A stretch of 30,205 bases of DNA from a virus. The stretch is from positions 1 to 30,205 of the IMG/VR virus record IMGVR_UViG_3300028423_000092; one strand, given 5' to 3'. The notes under the pieces are model-generated. The model saw only the letters and a program-made list of their open reading frames with translations. It made no database searches and was not told the DNA's origin. The position numbers were made by a program, and so were the translations under genes. Of this stretch, positions 2,593 through 22,209 are shown one piece after another (positions within the stretch are counted from its first letter, which is position 1; every line of letters begins with the position of its first letter).

Positions 2593-3278
2593 CGGACAAG
2601 ACCACCACACCTAACCTTGCGGGCATTATCCGCAAGGAAGACGTCTACAAGAAAGGCACAGGCAACTTCAGCGCCAGCTATGTGCCATGGGCCAGGATCG
2701 CGCAGCTTCTCCACGAGCACGCCCCAGGCTGGGACTTTCATCTCAGTCGGTATCCCGATGGATCAGGTGGCAACCCAATTCACAAGGCACCTGATGGCAC
2801 AGGTTACGTTCTCGGGCACTTCAAAGGCCCTGACGGGAAAGTCACCAGCGACTTCCCGTTCCCGTGCATGGATCACCGGAACAACCCGATCCCGTTTGAC
2901 AAGATCTCAGCGCGAGTCCTGACTGACACGCATCGCCGTGCGCTCTGCGCTGCTGCTGCGTTTCACTTCAGTCTCGGTTCTGAGCTATGGGCAAAGCAGG
3001 AGCTTGAGGATGCCGGCGCTGAGCCTGCTCCTGCAGCCCCTGCCAAGACCAAGAAATCAGCCACGCCTGAACCTGCGGAGGATGACGACAAGCCACTCTC
3101 TAAGGTCGTCCAGGCCGGTCGTAAGGCTATTGCCGGGGCAACCTCCGTCGAGCAGCTTGAAGCCGTCACGAAGCGGCTGATGACACGCCATGAGGCTGGC
3201 GATCTGACCGATGAAGAGCACCAGGGCCTCCTGCAGCTGCTGCTCGACCGCGAAACACAACTCACCACCAACAAGTGA
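2589..3278 (+). CDS. Single-strand DNA annealing protein, Rad52/Sak/DUF1071-like
   Basis: 229 residues. The N-terminal domain (about 1-140) contains YVPWARIAQLLHEHAPGW and LTDTHRRALCAAAAFHFSLGSELW. These correspond to the "sYLsWaWAW..." and "a.mRc....a..GLG..lY" blocks of DUF1071/Sak-type annealing proteins. A linker rich in Ala, Pro and Lys follows (145-170), then a helical C-terminal domain. It is translationally coupled to the exonuclease upstream (ATGA) and touches the next gene. Proteins of this group anneal complementary single strands during phage recombination. The family is judged from motif resemblance and context; ERF or a related family is the main alternative. Confidence 0.75.
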   Translation: MTDKTTTPNLAGIIRKEDVYKKGTGNFSASYVPWARIAQLLHEHAPGWDFHLSRYPDGSGGNPIHKAPDGTGYVLGHFKGPDGKVTSDFPFPCMDHRNNPIPFDKISARVLTDTHRRALCAAAAFHFSLGSELWAKQELEDAGAEPAPAAPAKTKKSATPEPAEDDDKPLSKVVQAGRKAIAGATSVEQLEAVTKRLMTRHEAGDLTDEEHQGLLQLLLDRETQLTTNK

Positions 3279-3280
3279 CC

Positions 3281-3574
3281 ATGACTGAACTCAACGCATC
3301 ATTCAGCCTGTTCCCTGCTCAGGAGAAAAAGTCCGAGCGCAGCCCTGATTACGGCGGCACCATCGAGATTCCTGCGGATCAGATCGATGCCTTGGTGGCT
3401 CACCTCGGCACACAGCCTGAAAACAACTGGAAAGACGAGCCGGTGGTAAAGCTGCGGATTGCAGGATGGAAAGCTCAAAGCCAAGGCGGGAAGAACTATC
3501 TCAACGGCAAGATCAGCGTGCCGATGCAGCAGCAGCAAGCGCCAGCGACCAACGATGACGAGATGCCGTTCTGA
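3281..3574 (+). CDS. Small protein with SSB-like acidic C-terminal tip
   Basis: 97 residues from ATG 3281. A GTG at 3275 overlapping the upstream stop is the alternative start. The body is a beta-strand-rich domain (TIEIPADQI, VVKLRIAGWKA, KNYLNGKISVPM), followed by a Gln-rich linker (QQQQ) and the ending NDDEMPF. An acidic tip closing in a hydrophobic-Pro-Phe triplet is the hallmark of bacterial and phage SSB proteins (DDDIPF type), which use it to recruit replication and repair partners. The gene sits directly after the exonuclease and annealing protein, where phages often place their SSB. I infer a ssDNA-binding or SSB-analogous role; no OB-fold can be proven by eye. Confidence 0.7.
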   Translation: MTELNASFSLFPAQEKKSERSPDYGGTIEIPADQIDALVAHLGTQPENNWKDEPVVKLRIAGWKAQSQGGKNYLNGKISVPMQQQQAPATNDDEMPF

Positions 3575-4302
3575 TGATTGATCCTTTGTTCCGCGTCGAT
3601 CTGATCGCCGCCACGCCTAACCCGCAGCAGTGCATCTACGCTGCGATGCACCAGGACTACAGCGAGACCTTCGTGGCCGCTGATCGCATGAGCTGGCCGG
3701 ATGAAACCCGTGCCGGTGAGATCTGCGTCAAGCGGCTGCTATCAGGTGAGCGGGGCCATTACGGCCCCCTGGAGCACCCCCAGATCACGTTCAATGCTGG
3801 CTGGTTCCCGCACGACGTGATGCAGCAAGCCCGCACTCATCGTGTTGGCGTCAGCTTTGATGTTCAATCAGGCCGCTACACATCGAAGCGAATCTGCGAT
3901 GTCGCGCTTGGCAAGCTTGACGTCGATCAGGTGTTCTATCGGCGCCCAGCAGGCACCTACCGCGATCGGTCTGGCAAGTGCTACGAATACACAGAAGAGC
4001 AGCGATCAATCGATCGCAACCTGTTCATGGATATGGCGACACGCTACTGGGAGGACATCCAGGCAGGCTTTTCTGAAGAGCACGCACGGCGCATGATGCC
4101 GTATGCCTTGCGTCAGCACTTTGTCGTCAGCTTCAGCCTCAGAGCTCTGATGCACTTCTTGGATCTACGGGTTAAGGAAGATGCACAGTTGGAGATCCGG
4201 CAGCTGTCTGAGCTGCTCTGGCCGCACTTTGTGACATGGGCACCACAGATCGCTGATTGGTATCAGGATCGGCGTTGGGGCAAAGCGAGGCTTGCACCAT
4301 GA
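3574..4302 (+). CDS. thyX: Flavin-dependent thymidylate synthase ThyX
   Basis: 242 residues, typical ThyX length. The signature region, residues 87-102 (RTHRVGVSFDVQSGRY), is the variant of the RHRxxSxNxxSxRY ThyX motif with an extra residue and Asp for Asn, a form known from cyanobacterial enzymes. Upstream is RGHYGPLEHPQITF, the conserved substrate-pocket block. Near the end is FSLRALMHFLDLR....QLEIRQL, matching the conserved nrxLxhfl.lR block with its FAD/dUMP-contacting Arg. ThyX methylates dUMP to dTMP using methylenetetrahydrofolate and FAD, here supplying thymidylate for phage DNA synthesis. Both ends overlap neighbouring genes (TGATG and ATGA). Confidence 0.95.
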   Translation: MIDPLFRVDLIAATPNPQQCIYAAMHQDYSETFVAADRMSWPDETRAGEICVKRLLSGERGHYGPLEHPQITFNAGWFPHDVMQQARTHRVGVSFDVQSGRYTSKRICDVALGKLDVDQVFYRRPAGTYRDRSGKCYEYTEEQRSIDRNLFMDMATRYWEDIQAGFSEEHARRMMPYALRQHFVVSFSLRALMHFLDLRVKEDAQLEIRQLSELLWPHFVTWAPQIADWYQDRRWGKARLAP

Positions 4303-4535
4303 ATGATGCTGTCAATCACCCCGAGCACTACAACCAGGGCGACATCGAGTGCATCGATGCCATTCGCGCTGCGCTGACGGCTGAGGAGTTTCGCGGTTAC
4401 TGCAAAGGCAACGTCCTGAAGTACTGCTGGAGGGAGCGTTACAAAGGCCAGAACGAAGCCCTGGCCAAGTGCATCCCTTACCTCAACTGGGCGATGGAGG
4501 CACACAAGCCGCCGCGCACTGGAGCAGCTCGATGA
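4299..4535 (+). CDS. DUF3310 protein (SaV-like, nucleotide-metabolism associated)
   Basis: 78 residues from ATG 4299, overlapping the thyX stop as ATGA. It has the DUF3310 pattern VNHPEHYNQGDIECIDAI, then FRGYCKGNVLKYCWRERYKG and a C-terminal helix ending in LNWAME. These small phage proteins are often annotated as nucleotide-kinase-like, but their biochemistry is not established. Placement directly after thyX fits a role in nucleotide supply. The longer open frame starting at 4257 adds residues that overlap thyX and was not chosen. Confidence 0.85.
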   Translation: MNDAVNHPEHYNQGDIECIDAIRAALTAEEFRGYCKGNVLKYCWRERYKGQNEALAKCIPYLNWAMEAHKPPRTGAAR

Positions 4536-5347
4536 CTGACTCAAATCCATCGCTAACATATATTTTCTCCTGTGGAGGTGGCGTTCAATCCACCGCCTGC
4601 CTAGTGCTCGCAGCGCAAGGTCGTATCCCTTACCGCACCTTCATCTTTGCTAACGTCGGACACAAGGCTGAGAGTCCTGCCACTATCCACTACATCAACA
4701 CCGTGCTTAAGCCATACGCTACCCAGCACGACATTCAATGGGTTGATGTTGCATGGGTAGATCGTCACGGTAGACAACGTGATTTGTATGACGATCTCCT
4801 TGAGCAAGAGCGCAGCATCAACATCCCTGCTTTTATGCCAGGTGGGATGCCAGGTAATCGAAAATGCACAGAGGCTTTTAAGATCAAACCAATTGCAAAA
4901 TGGATTAAGGCCAACGCACCTGGCTGCATTCTCGGGAAAGGCATTAGCACTGATGAACCGCATCGCGCTACGCCATCACGCGAATCCGATGGCTACTCCT
5001 CGGCCTACCCTCTTATTGAGCTTGGCATTAGTCGTGCGGACTGTCTCCAAATCGCACAATCCGCTAATTTGCCCCAGCCGCCAAAGTCCGCTTGTTACTT
5101 CTGCCCGTTCAAAACTACAGACCAATGGGTCACGCTTAGGCGTGAACAACCTGCACTGTTTGACAAATGCGTTGATCTTGAGCGCATTTTGCAGCAACGT
5201 CGCTCTCTATTGGGCAAAGATCCTGTCTATCTTTCAGGCATTGGTGGACGCAAAGGTGTCAACCTTGATCAAGTCATTCCTGATCAACTTGGACTTTTTG
5301 GTTGGGAACCTGAGGAGGGTTGCGAATCTGGCTATTGCATGACCTAA
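4532..5347 (+). CDS. PAPS-reductase-family (PP-loop) protein
   Basis: 271 residues from ATG 4532, overlapping the DUF3310 stop as ATGA. The N-terminal PP-loop is FSCGGGVQSTA (12-22), an ATP-pyrophosphatase nucleotide-binding motif. RKCTEAFKIKPI (110-121) and the late CYFCPFK pair (C188, C191) match phage proteins labelled phosphoadenosine phosphosulfate reductase family or DndC-like. Such proteins adenylylate substrates and sometimes move sulfur. In phages the role is unproven, with sulfur-containing nucleic-acid modification and sulfur assimilation both proposed. The gene is clearly more AT-rich than its neighbours: sample 60-base lines give 40-47% GC against about 60% in thyX. That suggests recent acquisition. 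Confidence 0.85.
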   Translation: MTDSNPSLTYIFSCGGGVQSTACLVLAAQGRIPYRTFIFANVGHKAESPATIHYINTVLKPYATQHDIQWVDVAWVDRHGRQRDLYDDLLEQERSINIPAFMPGGMPGNRKCTEAFKIKPIAKWIKANAPGCILGKGISTDEPHRATPSRESDGYSSAYPLIELGISRADCLQIAQSANLPQPPKSACYFCPFKTTDQWVTLRREQPALFDKCVDLERILQQRRSLLGKDPVYLSGIGGRKGVNLDQVIPDQLGLFGWEPEEGCESGYCMT

Positions 5348-7259: not shown

Positions 7260-8150
7260 ATGCCAGCTGTTTTCCCTGATTCCTTCAGCGATTATCTCAA
7301 GATGATCGGTCGCTATCCGCTGCTGACACCAAGCCAGGAGATCGAGCTTTCCCGCCAGGCGCAGCGCTACATCGAGTTGCGTGACATCGAAGGCAAACCC
7401 AGCACGCCGCAGGAGAAGCGCGAGATGCGTGTTGGCAAGCGTGCCTTCGACAAGATGATCACTAGCAACCTCCGCCTGGTCGTCAACATCGCCAAGCGGT
7501 TCGCCAGTCGTGCTGGCCAAACGCTTGACATGATGGACCTCATCAGCGAGGGCACCATCGGCCTGCATCGCGCCGTTGAGCTATTCGATGCCTCACGCGG
7601 CTACAAGTTCAGCACCTACAGCTACTGGTGGGTGAGGCAGGCGATCTGTCGCGCAATCGACACCTCAGACCGCATGATCCGCGTACCGATTCATTCGCTT
7701 GAAAAGCTCCACAAGCTGATCAAGCTGCGCGAGACCTTCCAGCTATCCCATGGTCGTGAACCAACGCTGGCCGAGGCCGCTGAGATCCTGCAGGTCAAAG
7801 AACGCGAGCTGTCGCTTGTGCTCGAACGTGCTGCACGGCATGACAGCCTCGACAAGCTTCTCAAGAACGAGAAAGACGGCTCAGCCTTGGTCGACATGAT
7901 CGCATCGGAACCGATCGATGCGCAGCTGATGGATCAACGCGAGAAGGCCGATGCCATCAATCAGGCGCTGATGCACATCAACGAAGATGAGGCCGAGATC
8001 CTTGAACGCTACTACGGGCTGAACGGTGCGCCGCAAGAATCGCTGAAGGTGATCGGGCAGCAGAAAGGCGTGAGCCGTGAACGCATCAGGCAGAAGCGTG
8101 ACCGTGCCGCCAACAAGCTAGCCAGGCACATCGCGCCATTGGTGCGCTGA
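7260..8150 (+). CDS. Sigma-70 family RNA polymerase sigma factor
   Basis: 296 residues. It has region 1.2 (DSFSDYLKMIGRYPLLTPSQEIEL, 7-30) and region 2 with ITSNLRLVVNIAKRF and MDLISEGTIGLHRAVELFD (67-110). The -10 recognition segment is GYKFSTYSYWWVRQAICRAI (114-133). Region 3 follows with RVPIH, and region 4 has an HTH (SLKVIGQQKGVSRERIRQKRDRA, about 262-284). It lacks the long acidic region 1.1 of primary sigmas and resembles cyanobacterial group-2 sigma factors. As the last long early gene it probably redirects host RNA polymerase, possibly to the late promoter upstream of the terminase genes. The target promoter is inferred, not seen. Confidence 0.93.
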   Translation: MPAVFPDSFSDYLKMIGRYPLLTPSQEIELSRQAQRYIELRDIEGKPSTPQEKREMRVGKRAFDKMITSNLRLVVNIAKRFASRAGQTLDMMDLISEGTIGLHRAVELFDASRGYKFSTYSYWWVRQAICRAIDTSDRMIRVPIHSLEKLHKLIKLRETFQLSHGREPTLAEAAEILQVKERELSLVLERAARHDSLDKLLKNEKDGSALVDMIASEPIDAQLMDQREKADAINQALMHINEDEAEILERYYGLNGAPQESLKVIGQQKGVSRERIRQKRDRAANKLARHIAPLVR

Positions 8151-18703: not shown

Positions 18704-19122
18704 GGCGCTCCGTCGTCCAGGACGTTGCCTTCAATGTAGGTGGTGTCAGGTGCTCCACCATCCATGGTCACCGTGCTAGTCGTATCGACGCCATCGCCGT
18801 CGAGCACTGCACGATCCGACGTGCTCTGCTCCGGTGTCGTGGTGCGTTGCAGCATGATCTCGCAGAATGCTCCATCGTCCATCAACATGACGGATTTGAC
18901 GGTGTAGGCACGTCCATCGACGTTGATGCCAGCGCCATATTCCAGATCGCCAAACTCGCTGGCCTTGCAGATCAAGCTGTAATCCGTGCTCAGCACCATC
19001 CCGCCAGCCACGGTTTCCGTTGGCATGTCCAGGATGCCAGTGCTCGACACAGCACCAGCCACCACCGGCACAGCGAACTCAGCCGTGCTCAGGAACAGAT
19101 CGAGATCTTCGGTGAAGGCCAT
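18700..19122 (-). CDS. Head-tail joining protein (FII-like)
   Basis: 140 residues. The opening FTEDLDLFLSTAEFAVPV matches the head-tail attachment group ("...dl..ff..~Fa..a....~"), followed by STGILDMPTE, DYSLICKASEFGDLEYGAGINVDGRAYTVKSVMLMDDGAFCEIMLQR, the characteristic strand pair ("i.v~g.~Y.V....dd~g~~~l.L"). The C-terminus is an acidic Thr/Asp-rich extension. Lies in the neck cluster, overlapping its neighbours by 1 and 4 nt. Confidence is moderate because the call is from pattern and gene order. Confidence 0.75.
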   Translation of the reverse strand: MAFTEDLDLFLSTAEFAVPVVAGAVSSTGILDMPTETVAGGMVLSTDYSLICKASEFGDLEYGAGINVDGRAYTVKSVMLMDDGAFCEIMLQRTTTPEQSTSDRAVLDGDGVDTTSTVTMDGGAPDTTYIEGNVLDDGAP

Positions 19123-19373
19123 CAGTTCAAGGCCTGCTCGATCTGCTCACGGCTGGCAAAGCCCCAAGCTGCAGCAGCTCCGGCATTCCATTCCTTGCGG
19201 ATCACCGGCTCCACGTAGCCAGTATCGCCAGGCTTGAGACTGCTGTCATAGTCGTCTGGATAAACCGCGTCATCGAACGTCACGAAATCGTTCAACAGCC
19301 CATTAAGAAAGGTCGTGCGCTCAGCGCTCGCCTCAGCATTCACAAGGTCGTCGATGGTGTTGATGATCAGCAT
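19122..19373 (-). CDS. Small structural-module protein (83 aa)
   Basis: 83 residues from ATG 19373, which overlaps the reverse transcriptase stop by 7 nt. An upstream in-frame ATG at 19439 lies inside the RT gene and was not chosen. The N-terminus is helical (IDDLVNAEASAERTTFLNGLLNDFVTFDDAVYP) and the rest is a Trp-containing segment with a C-terminal helix (WNAGAAAAWGFASREQIEQAL). No firm family. Neck-region phages often carry a small protein here. Coupling to the RT stop means the DGR cassette is co-transcribed with the structural genes. Confidence 0.65.
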   Translation of the reverse strand: MLIINTIDDLVNAEASAERTTFLNGLLNDFVTFDDAVYPDDYDSSLKPGDTGYVEPVIRKEWNAGAAAAWGFASREQIEQALN

Positions 19374-20341
19374 GATGCGGCAAGTCCTAGGTTCTTGAGT
19401 CCATTCTGGCCATCTCCGTGACGGATGTGGCCCATCCATGCTAATTGCGAACGCCGCCAGCCCTCATGGTCGTCATGCGCCAAGGCCAGCTTCAGCCGCC
19501 GTCGCTGTCGGATCATTGACTGCCGCTTGATCAGCTTGAACTTCAACCGGATCCGGAATCCGCAAAAAGTAAAGCCACGCCTGACTGGCACAAGGCTCCA
19601 TTTCCCAATCTTCTGCTGCATCTCAGTGGCAACAAACGCACAGATCTCGTTCTTTAGAGTCATGCCATCGTGCTTGTTATCCACAATCACAACTGCGTCG
19701 TCCATGTAGCGCACAAAGCTGCCATTGCCTTTCTGAGCAATGAAACGATCAAGCTTCCCGCCCCAATAGTTGCAAAAGCACTGGCTGGTCAGCGCACCGA
19801 TTGGCAATCCACGCGGCTGCACTGATAACACTTGCTCGATCAGCCGTAGCGTGCGCTGGCAGGTCAGCTTCTTGCCCAGATGGTCCAACAGCAAGCCCTG
19901 CGGGATGCTCGGGAAGAACTTGCTGAAATCCACGTGCAATAGCCATGCGTCTGGGTTCTGACGCATCAGCTGCTGCATCCGTGTGATACAGCGATGTGTG
20001 CCAAGCCCCACTCGACATGCGAACACCTGAGGCATCAGGGCCGCGTCAAGAATCGGCCCAATCACTTGAATCAAGGCATGATGAACAATACGATCACGAA
20101 AGCTCTGGCAAGCGATCGTCCGCTTCTTTGGATCAATAATATCAAACTGCAGCTGCGGGTCAGGCTTCCAGCTTTCCTCAATCAGACGCTGCTGAAGGTT
20201 GCGCAGATTGGCCAATGCGTACTCCTTGAACCGCAGGTAGGAACTGCTGTAGGTTTTGCCTCGCCTTGCCTCTGCATAGGCAAGCAGCAGATTATCCCAC
20301 TGATAGATCTGTTCGTAGAGATTGCGGAACTTCTTGCCCAT
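19367..20341 (-). CDS. DGR-type reverse transcriptase
   Basis: 324 residues with the RT palm motifs in order. LHVDFSKFFPSI has the first catalytic Asp at 138. RGLPIGALTSQ (177-187) carries the [IVL]GxxxSQ form of motif 4 that is diagnostic of diversity-generating retroelements; group II intron RTs read differently there. VRYMDDAVV has the catalytic pair at D214-D215. The C-terminal thumb is basic (RIRLKFKLIKRQSMIRQRRRLKL). The length is typical of DGR RTs, with no endonuclease or maturase domain. It should copy the template repeat RNA with adenine-specific errors together with the Avd protein. It is followed without a gap by structural genes, so it shares the late transcript. Confidence 0.96.
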   Translation of the reverse strand: MGKKFRNLYEQIYQWDNLLLAYAEARRGKTYSSSYLRFKEYALANLRNLQQRLIEESWKPDPQLQFDIIDPKKRTIACQSFRDRIVHHALIQVIGPILDAALMPQVFACRVGLGTHRCITRMQQLMRQNPDAWLLHVDFSKFFPSIPQGLLLDHLGKKLTCQRTLRLIEQVLSVQPRGLPIGALTSQCFCNYWGGKLDRFIAQKGNGSFVRYMDDAVVIVDNKHDGMTLKNEICAFVATEMQQKIGKWSLVPVRRGFTFCGFRIRLKFKLIKRQSMIRQRRRLKLALAHDDHEGWRRSQLAWMGHIRHGDGQNGLKNLGLAASC

Positions 20342-20496
20342 TGGAAGGTGACGGCAGGTTTCGATAAGCTACTCCCTGCCATTGCCACCACTCGGCCCTG
20401 AGTTTGCCGAAGCAGGAATTGATGGCTGGCACCTGATTAGCACCGGCCTGCTGCCCCATAGAAACAGCAGAGCGTAAAGGTGTTTGACAGTGGCCA
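20342..20496 (-). ncRNA. Spacer part of the DGR template RNA (Sp region)
   Basis: About 155 nt between the template repeat and the RT start, without a supported gene. In BPP-1 a spacer of similar size (about 140 nt) downstream of TR is required for cDNA priming and RT/Avd binding. Position and size match here. An 8-base palindrome GTGGCCAC marks the TR/spacer junction. Its function as part of a structured RNA is inferred from that analogy. Confidence 0.6.
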
Positions 20497-20613
20497 CGGC
20501 CGCAAAACGCGCCGAGATGTTGTTGTTCGCATTCGATGGAGCGTTGTTCCAGTTAGCACAACGTGAACCGGAATTCGACCCATTGTTCCAGTTGCCACCC
20601 AGGATGACGGCGC
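20497..20613 (-). repeat. DGR template repeat (TR)
   Basis: 117 bp, aligned without gaps to 21069-21185 (constant offset 572). 98 positions are identical. Every one of the 19 differences is a T on the plus strand of TR, that is, an adenine on the coding strand. 26 such adenines exist in total and 7 are unchanged. None of the other 91 positions differ. TR is rich in AAC/AAT codons if read in the target frame (NWNN..., NNN), the usual design that leaves many mutable positions. It lies between avd and the RT gene. The TR 5' end on the coding strand is 17 nt after the avd stop. Confidence 0.97.
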
Positions 20614-20630
20614 ACCCATCAACTCCAGCA

Positions 20631-21023
20631 TCAGTCTGATGCCTTTTTTGCTTTTTGCAATCGCTTAAGCCAACTGCCAAGCATCGCGCCAACTTCAGCG
20701 ATCAAGGCCTGAGCGGTTTCAAGCTGATGCTCAGTGAGCATCTTGCGCCTGTGATGCACCATGAAACGTAAGAGCAAGCGCAGCTGCGCGAGACTGCCGT
20801 CCAGCACGTAGCAGCGGCTCAACTGATTGGCCTTGATCGCAGTGTTCAGATGTTCGGCAACCAAAAACAACTGACGAATCAAAAGCTCACGAAATACGCC
20901 ATGCTTCCGTGGGATGCTTTGGGCGATTGGATAGATGTAGTCCACAACACGCTCATACTTCTCGACCATGTAGAGACCATGAGCCTCCTTGGAGGGATCC
21001 GCCGAGGCTCTTTTCTTGCTCAT
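20631..21023 (-). CDS. avd: DGR accessory variability determinant (Avd-like four-helix protein)
   Basis: 130 residues, almost entirely helical and basic: VEKYERVVDYIYPIAQSIPRKHGVFRELLIRQLFLVAEHLNTAIKA, then a second pair of long helices (LAQLRLLLRFMVHHRRKML, LETAQALIAEVGAMLGSWLKRLQKAKK). This is the Avd/four-helix-bundle layout, with the conserved "KxYxxvxxxxxxxxxxPrxxrxxLxxRi"-type first helix pair. Avd forms a pentamer that binds the RT and the template RNA and is needed for homing. ATG 21023 is used here, overlapping the target gene. ATG 20969, just before VEKYERVV and 14 nt after an AAGGAGG sequence, is a possible alternative start. Confidence 0.85.
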   Translation of the reverse strand: MSKKRASADPSKEAHGLYMVEKYERVVDYIYPIAQSIPRKHGVFRELLIRQLFLVAEHLNTAIKANQLSRCYVLDGSLAQLRLLLRFMVHHRRKMLTEHQLETAQALIAEVGAMLGSWLKRLQKAKKASD

Positions 21024-22209
21024 GATCGCGTCGGCGCTGTCGCGCCGCGTAACAAGTCACAAGGTGCCCGGCCGCAAAACGCGCCGAGAAGGAGTTGCTC
21101 GCAAACGACGGAGCGGCGCTCCAGAAAGCACAACGGGAACCGGAACTCGACCCACGGCTCCAGGAGCCACCCAGGATGACGGCGCTGTAACCCGACTGAT
21201 ACACATCGCCACGGTCGCCTGTAGCACTTGTCCAGCCACCTCCGGTGTTGCCCTGCACATCAGACCCCCAGGACCAAAGCGTGCCAGTAGACTGCGCCAA
21301 CCCCCATAAGCTCGCACGTTCCCAGATCACTGTTCCAGGGTCTGTGCCACGGCTGCCGTTCTCTGGTCCGCCAAAAGCTGCATGTTGGAACTCAAGCCAG
21401 CTGATCAGACGCTTACCGAAGCTGCTCGCTACCTCAGCGAAGTCATACCAGCTACCGGCTTCTTTGCTATCGACAAGGCTGTAGGTAGTAGTTCCATCGC
21501 CGCCATAAATCGCAGGGATCAGCGGCGGATTGTTCTCGTCAGCAATGGTCAGCCCGATTTTGCTGCTTGGCACTGCAGTGAAGTCAGAGCCTGCATAGCT
21601 GGTAGCACCGCAGAGATAAAGATCGCACCAGAACCGACCATCGACGCATGTCATGCCACGAGGATCAGGGCAGGTCGGACGCCAGGTCAGATCCCAGATG
21701 CTGTATTCAAGGATCTCAGCCGCTGCAGTAGGGCTGCCGCTATTCACTGCTGTCGGACGACCGCTTGGGATGTGGTGAAAGCCACCGACAATCGAACCGC
21801 CAGTGGCACCTGCAGGAGCACTAGTGAAGCTCGCATCAGCAACCAAACTGCCGTCTGTTGGATGCTGCCAGATTGCGTAGTCGATGTTGTCGGTGAAGCT
21901 GCCGGGCATTGTCACAGCCGTAGCTGTGTCATAGGCCACGCCATTCAGCACCGATCCAGCCGTAATACTGACCGCTGTAGAAGCTGTCTTGTAAAACAGC
22001 GGGCCGCGATGCAACACAGGGCGGCGGTTGAAATAGCCAATGGCACTTGCAAAGAGACGAAAGCCATCCCAAGTCAGATCAGCGGAGCCAGCCAGGGCGC
22101 CATTATCGTTGTACTGAACCTGCGTATCAGATCCGCCGGCTGCTGCATCAGCATCGTTACCTGTGTCATCTAGGCCGATGCCAATCAGCGGATTGAACTT
22201 GTAAGCCAT
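20953..22209 (-). CDS. DGR target protein, C-type-lectin-like variable virion protein
   Basis: 418 residues. The N-terminus (about 1-60) has GGSDTQVQYNDNGALAGSADLTWDG, a short motif common in phage fibres. The middle is a beta-rich region with GGFHHIPSGRP, YSIWDLTWRPTCPDPRGMTCVDGRFW and FGKRLISWLEFQHAAFGGPENGSRGTDPG. It leads into the CLec/FGE-like variable fold: LWSWGSDVQ, AVILGGSWSRGSSSGSRCAFW, ending NSFSARFAAG. VR covers about residues 342-381, and mutable positions map to Ser, Arg, Phe and Ala residues where TR has Asn. 37 further residues follow VR. As in Mtd, the variable face should contact a host receptor. Its position beside head genes leaves head or neck display possible. Confidence 0.88.
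   Translation of the reverse strand: MAYKFNPLIGIGLDDTGNDADAAAGGSDTQVQYNDNGALAGSADLTWDGFRLFASAIGYFNRRPVLHRGPLFYKTASTAVSITAGSVLNGVAYDTATAVTMPGSFTDNIDYAIWQHPTDGSLVADASFTSAPAGATGGSIVGGFHHIPSGRPTAVNSGSPTAAAEILEYSIWDLTWRPTCPDPRGMTCVDGRFWCDLYLCGATSYAGSDFTAVPSSKIGLTIADENNPPLIPAIYGGDGTTTYSLVDSKEAGSWYDFAEVASSFGKRLISWLEFQHAAFGGPENGSRGTDPGTVIWERASLWGLAQSTGTLWSWGSDVQGNTGGGWTSATGDRGDVYQSGYSAVILGGSWSRGSSSGSRCAFWSAAPSFASNSFSARFAAGHLVTCYAARQRRRDHEQEKSLGGSLQGGSWSLHGREV
21032..21047 (-). promoter_or_regulatory. DGR homing hairpin downstream of VR
   Basis: On the coding strand CGGCGC, GACA, GCGCCG forms a 6-bp GC stem with a 4-base loop of the GRNA type. It starts 21 nt past the VR end. DGR target sites such as that of BPP-1 have a hairpin/cruciform of this kind just downstream of VR that raises homing efficiency. 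Here it lies inside the coding sequence of the target's C-terminal tail. Confidence 0.75.
21069..21185 (-). repeat. DGR variable repeat (VR) with IMH
   Basis: The recipient copy of the template repeat, at the C-terminal end of the target gene. It aligns over 117 bp with TR, and all 19 substitutions correspond to TR coding-strand adenines. The 3'-most 21 bp (21069-21089), identical in TR and lacking adenine on the coding strand, is GC-rich and fits the initiation-of-mutagenic-homing (IMH) element. Beyond it TR and VR diverge. Confidence 0.97.

Follow-up and report, generated by a model that had tools for sequence, protein, structure and literature searches.

The window (the whole stretch of DNA analysed, 30,205 bases long) almost certainly contains a complete diversity-generating retroelement (DGR) of the BPP-1 type, carried by a siphophage of the S-CBS1 group, whose reverse transcriptase (RT) and Avd protein would make a cDNA which rewrites the variable repeat (VR) of the mtd gene. 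All its parts are there, and it has probably been used recently.

The record corresponds to a virus of aquatic cyanobacteria, close to Synechococcus siphophage S-CBS1: Its structural half is 89.6% identical to S-CBS1 over 83% of a 21.7-kb query, while the match to S-CBS3 is less close. The order of the cassette is mtd (with VR), avd, template repeat (TR), Phage_DGR RNA and RT, as in BPP-1. The features are listed in Table 1. The RT, which adjoins TR, is of the DGR type and presents both the SQ motif and YMDD. It is 38.5% identical to BPP-1 brt over 97% and matches chain A of PDB 8UB7 (E=6e-81). The avd product matches PDB 4DWL (E=1.7e-31) and also chain B of 8UB7. The RNA located between TR and RT scores 76.7 bits, with a gathering score of 50. 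An earlier note, made from the letters alone, had read the two repeats as the template and variable repeats of a DGR; all the other parts of a BPP-1-type cassette adjoin them and match by sequence, which supports this reading. When the RT and Mtd alignments were scanned against bacterial genome contigs, no relative and no prophage or host copy was found.

Two other genes of this phage may be mentioned. A sigma-70 factor is encoded at 7260-8150 (+), and is also found in S-CBS1, S-CBS3 and S-LBS1. A ThyX gene is found at 3574-4302 (+), and is absent from the annotation of S-CBS1 and S-CBS3.

By analogy with BPP-1, an RNA containing TR and the Phage_DGR spacer would be copied by RT-Avd into cDNA, with errors opposite adenines. 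This cDNA would take the place of VR in the 3' part of mtd, with the 3' end common to both repeats and the nearby downstream GACA hairpin as guides. In the tail receptor-binding protein, up to about a dozen residues of the C-type-lectin face would be altered and the scaffold left intact, and host range may change as a result.

Table 1. Features of the DGR cassette and its surroundings (positions in the window)
Feature	Position	Strand	Remarks
mtd, target gene, 418 aa	20953-22209	-	Mtd homologue (receptor-binding tail protein); PF21916, E=5e-21
VR, variable repeat	21069-21185	-	Within the 3' part of mtd
TAC at the position of the mtd stop of relatives	21049-21051	-	Stop lost; TAA in S-CBS1
Hairpin CGGCGC-GACA-GCGCCG	21032-21047	-	21 nt after VR
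avd, accessory variability determinant, 130 aa	20631-21023	-	PF22296 bAvd, E=1e-22; PHROG 3206
TR, template repeat	20497-20613	-
DGR RNA spacer	20347-20473	-	Downstream of TR; Rfam RF03022 Phage_DGR
DGR reverse transcriptase, 324 aa	19367-20341	-	PF00078; motifs LPIGALTSQ, YMDD
gp08-like gene	19122-19373	-	Downstream of RT; anchor for sampling relatives
Segment absent from S-CBS1 and S-CBS3	19510-21029	-	avd, TR, most of RT

The adenine signature

TR and VR, which are 84% identical and placed at a distance of 572 bp, are the sole long direct repeat of the region. Their identity ends on both sides of the 117 bp, and no further copy of either is found elsewhere in the 30,205-base record. The earlier note had described a gapless 117-bp alignment with 19 mismatches, found exclusively at TR adenines. 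Our recomputed alignment agrees: In the coding (minus) strand, each of the 19 mismatches corresponds to one of the 26 TR adenines, and none of the 91 other positions differs (hypergeometric P = 1.9e-16). The substitutions are 7 A>T, 7 A>G and 5 A>C; 7 adenines are left unchanged.

Drift cannot put 19 of 19 changes on adenines, so VR has been rewritten at least once; both statements had been made in the earlier note, and both stand. The note also considered the cassette recently active. This is a fair but undated conclusion, drawn from the absence of non-A changes and from the differing VRs of two close relatives (L026 and L028, see below). The translation of TR in the target frame is AVILGGNWNNGSNSGSRCANWNNAPSNANNNISARFAA. 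Its mutable codons are AAC or AAT, so changes of their adenines yield no stop.

The target protein and its lost stop codon

The mtd product matches the solved structures PDB 1YU0-1YU4 and 2IOU, with E values from 2.5e-53 to 5e-52 for the single sequence and 1.2e-70 for the profile. Its residues 71-384 are aligned to Mtd 66-379, and the Asn positions encoded by TR align with the sites which differ among the solved Mtd-P1, M1, I1 and U1. The AlphaFold model built from the 28-row Mtd alignment was not usable (pLDDT 40), so we have used sequence profiles against the solved Mtd structures instead.

The loss of the mtd stop adds 32 residues: The frame continues through the hairpin and shares 71 nt with the beginning of avd. 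Other mtd genes which we have seen complete end 6-7 residues past VR (the exceptions are TR itself, caught by the scan, and locus L007), and solved Mtd likewise terminates right behind the VR segment. The TAC codon, confined to this record among the loci compared, may be genuine or come from a sequencing error. It could impair the target protein.

The cassette may be complete in sequence and yet no longer active, if VR was written once and the system was then silenced by the lost stop or some other defect. The population is represented by a single genome, in which alone the stop is lost, and cassette loss is common among its relatives, which would fit such a history. Nevertheless, none of the 91 non-A sites differs, all reading frames are intact, as is the Phage_DGR RNA, and the stop loss falls outside TR, RT and avd. 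We consider an inactive cassette unlikely, and a recently used one remains our preferred explanation.

Variation, loss and exchange among relatives

The earlier note had proposed comparing VR in related genomes. Near-identical relatives which carry the DGR do differ in VR: L026 and L028 are 99.7% identical before VR and have 8 VR differences, L032 and L033 are 99.5% identical before VR and have 23. Five sets of near-identical contigs without DGR have no VR differences, but each set may stem from repeated sampling of one virus and is therefore weak evidence of VR freezing. We have examined 24 DGR-minus loci, with 25 VR copies, and every one of them still bears the adenine signature: Compared with the nearest TR, 409 of 693 A sites differ, against 205 of 2232 other sites.

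Relatives were sampled by means of the neighbouring gene gp08, an anchor which makes the sampling blind to DGR state. It gave 74 loci, with some redundant contigs, and mtd is visible in 67. The three genes mtd, avd and RT are found in 35 of these 67, so about half lack a complete cassette. Among the other 32, mtd lies directly before gp08 in 25, the RT end alone is retained in four, a truncated avd is joined to the RT end in two, and a single locus is missing avd alone.

The junctions left by these losses differ. S-CBS1 and S-CBS3 have a common one, from just past the hairpin to RT codon 278, and both retain VR, the hairpin and the RT C-terminus. Other junctions are found in L046 (about 20 avd codons kept), L055 and L119/L123 (60 avd codons kept). 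These distinct remnants prove at least four deletions. L007, which has no avd and where a TR-like end plus spacer is joined to mtd (1654-1895), is either a fifth deletion, by recombination between TR and VR, or an assembly join across the repeat; in view of the latter we have left it out of the proof of loss.

On the mtd tree, DGR state requires 15 changes, a number close to that obtained with shuffled labels; well-supported branches force 10 of the 15. The gp08 tree has too few columns for counting losses. S-CBS1 and S-CBS3 present a stretch of about 430 bp, starting near the VR end, with about 97% identity, while elsewhere there identity is mostly about 45-80%. This stretch and the mixed DGR states on the mtd tree indicate exchange as well as loss.

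As exchange is plain at this locus, VR might have been imported from the mtd of a relative by ordinary recombination, with no retrohoming in this lineage. However, non-A sites do vary between the TRs of relatives (by 16% on average), and VR agrees with its own TR at 91 of 91 such sites, which would be rare for an import. Such an origin is very improbable, and rewriting from the adjoining TR is much to be preferred.

Two unusual loci were also seen. L063 contains a tandem mtd pair with differing VR-like ends and no DGR genes (2785-4949). In L010/L135 (IMGVR_UViG_3300020220_001054) the mtd region apparently lacks about 60 nt compared with L009, a locus with an identical TR, and the TR/VR match is reduced to 30 nt.

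The DGR of these cyanophages might even be a swappable on/off module, deleted repeatedly and regained, whose leftover VR could be rewritten in trans. Taken jointly, these proposals are rather doubtful. If they were true, deletion would fix one receptor variant, regain would take place by recombination between the conserved VR end and gp08, and S-CBS1, S-CBS3, L046, L055 and L123, which are without DGR but retain VR and hairpin, would be rewritable by a co-infecting DGR-plus relative.

Substitutions across the family

We have obtained the substitution spectrum from 31 TR/VR pairs of this DGR family, including the pair in the window. Changes are found at 491 of 844 A, 21 of 698 T and 5 of 2085 G+C sites. 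Adenine-only change, as the earlier note had put it, is correct for this copy and for 12 other pairs, the 13 pairs without any non-A change, but it is no family rule: About 3% of TR thymines change too. A chance origin, or convergent drift of two duplicated segments, has nothing in its favour except the repeat itself; it is refuted by the positions of the changes (P = 2e-16) and by the recurrence of the pattern in the 30 other pairs, and its probability is practically nil.

The commonest change of adenine is A>G (253 of 491). Of the 21 thymine changes, 19 are T>G and none is T>C. Thymine changes are found at 8 of the 65 sites right after a changed A, and at none of the 54 right after an unchanged A. 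T>G changes, found for example in L014, L019, L022 and L030 (TR index 95-96) and in L011 and L024 (TR index 8-9), often turn ATC or ATT into CGC or CGT, beside a changed A. Both A>G and T>G correspond to dC placed in the cDNA, in agreement with the bias of BPP-1 RT in E. coli, whose most frequent misincorporation is dC (PMC12875486). Selection might act on the few recurrent sites.

Two TRs, those of L020 and L033, look rewritten themselves. The TRs of L020 (5731-5847) and L030 disagree at 17 of 30 A sites and at 3 of the 87 other positions, and the TR of L033 (5729-5845) differs from that of L032 by five A>G changes and no other. This suggests that mutated cDNA occasionally enters TR itself.

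The hairpin and the end of the repeat

The hairpin 3' of VR is likely, by analogy with known DGRs, to be the recognition element of the target site. In 33 DGR-plus loci its position is nearly fixed, 21-22 nt from VR, and practically all loops are GNCA. One G-C pair of the stem is replaced by C-G in 12 of these 33 loci, which preserves pairing. The stem has 6 bp in this record and 5 in most relatives. Published phage DGR hairpins have a GC-rich stem of 7-10 bp and a 4-nt GRNA loop, and are placed 4-34 bp from VR (PMC3240598). The GACA loop and the distance found here fall within this description, while the 6-bp stem is below its range.

TR and VR agree throughout their last 21 nt, both in this record and in 26 of 30 pairs. 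This end, TCTCGGCGCGTTTTGCGGCCG in the coding strand, contains no A, as the earlier note had stated. For this reason its conservation is uninformative, and the unmutated state to which the note drew attention shows nothing about protection. The IMH of BPP-1 has five TR/VR mismatches in 21 bp, which set direction; such a mismatch is a trait of BPP-1 itself, not a general DGR requirement. As the 3' ends of TR and VR are identical, unlike those of BPP-1, this end is a candidate IMH with provisional limits, and an element with mismatches might follow directly after the 117 nt, where identity ends.

Comparison with known systems

The literature we have searched describes no DGR in this phage group; the S-CBS genome paper by Huang et al. 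2012 was outside this search. The words Synechococcus and Mtd are absent from the main text of PMC8144416, and PMC6157547 mentions neither mtd nor reverse transcriptase.

A phage DGR which is lost and apparently exchanged often provides a natural comparison beyond BPP-1 alone. The same receptor-binding gene may be compared between phages whose mutator is on, went off recently or went off long ago, and two members of the group, S-CBS1 and S-CBS3, are in culture. This makes the costs and benefits of targeted hypermutation testable.

The cassette resembles that of BPP-1 (mtd-avd-TR-brt) in its adenine-specific changes and in the order of its genes, and it shares the Mtd-type target, Avd, RT, the Phage_DGR RNA and a hairpin with a GRNA-type loop behind VR. 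On the other hand, it differs from BPP-1 in its shorter stem, identical TR/VR 3' ends and 117-nt repeat, in belonging to a Synechococcus-type siphophage, and in an mtd which reads through into avd. S-CBS1 and S-CBS3 have the same structural gene order, mtd and gp08, but they lack avd, TR and all of RT except its C-terminus. Like the phage-encoded DGRs whose clades were described by Roux et al. 2021 (PMC8144416), this cassette diversifies an attachment protein whose VR domain is a C-type lectin. In summary, it adds one more member to the BPP-1 type, in a group of cyanophages which often lose the cassette.
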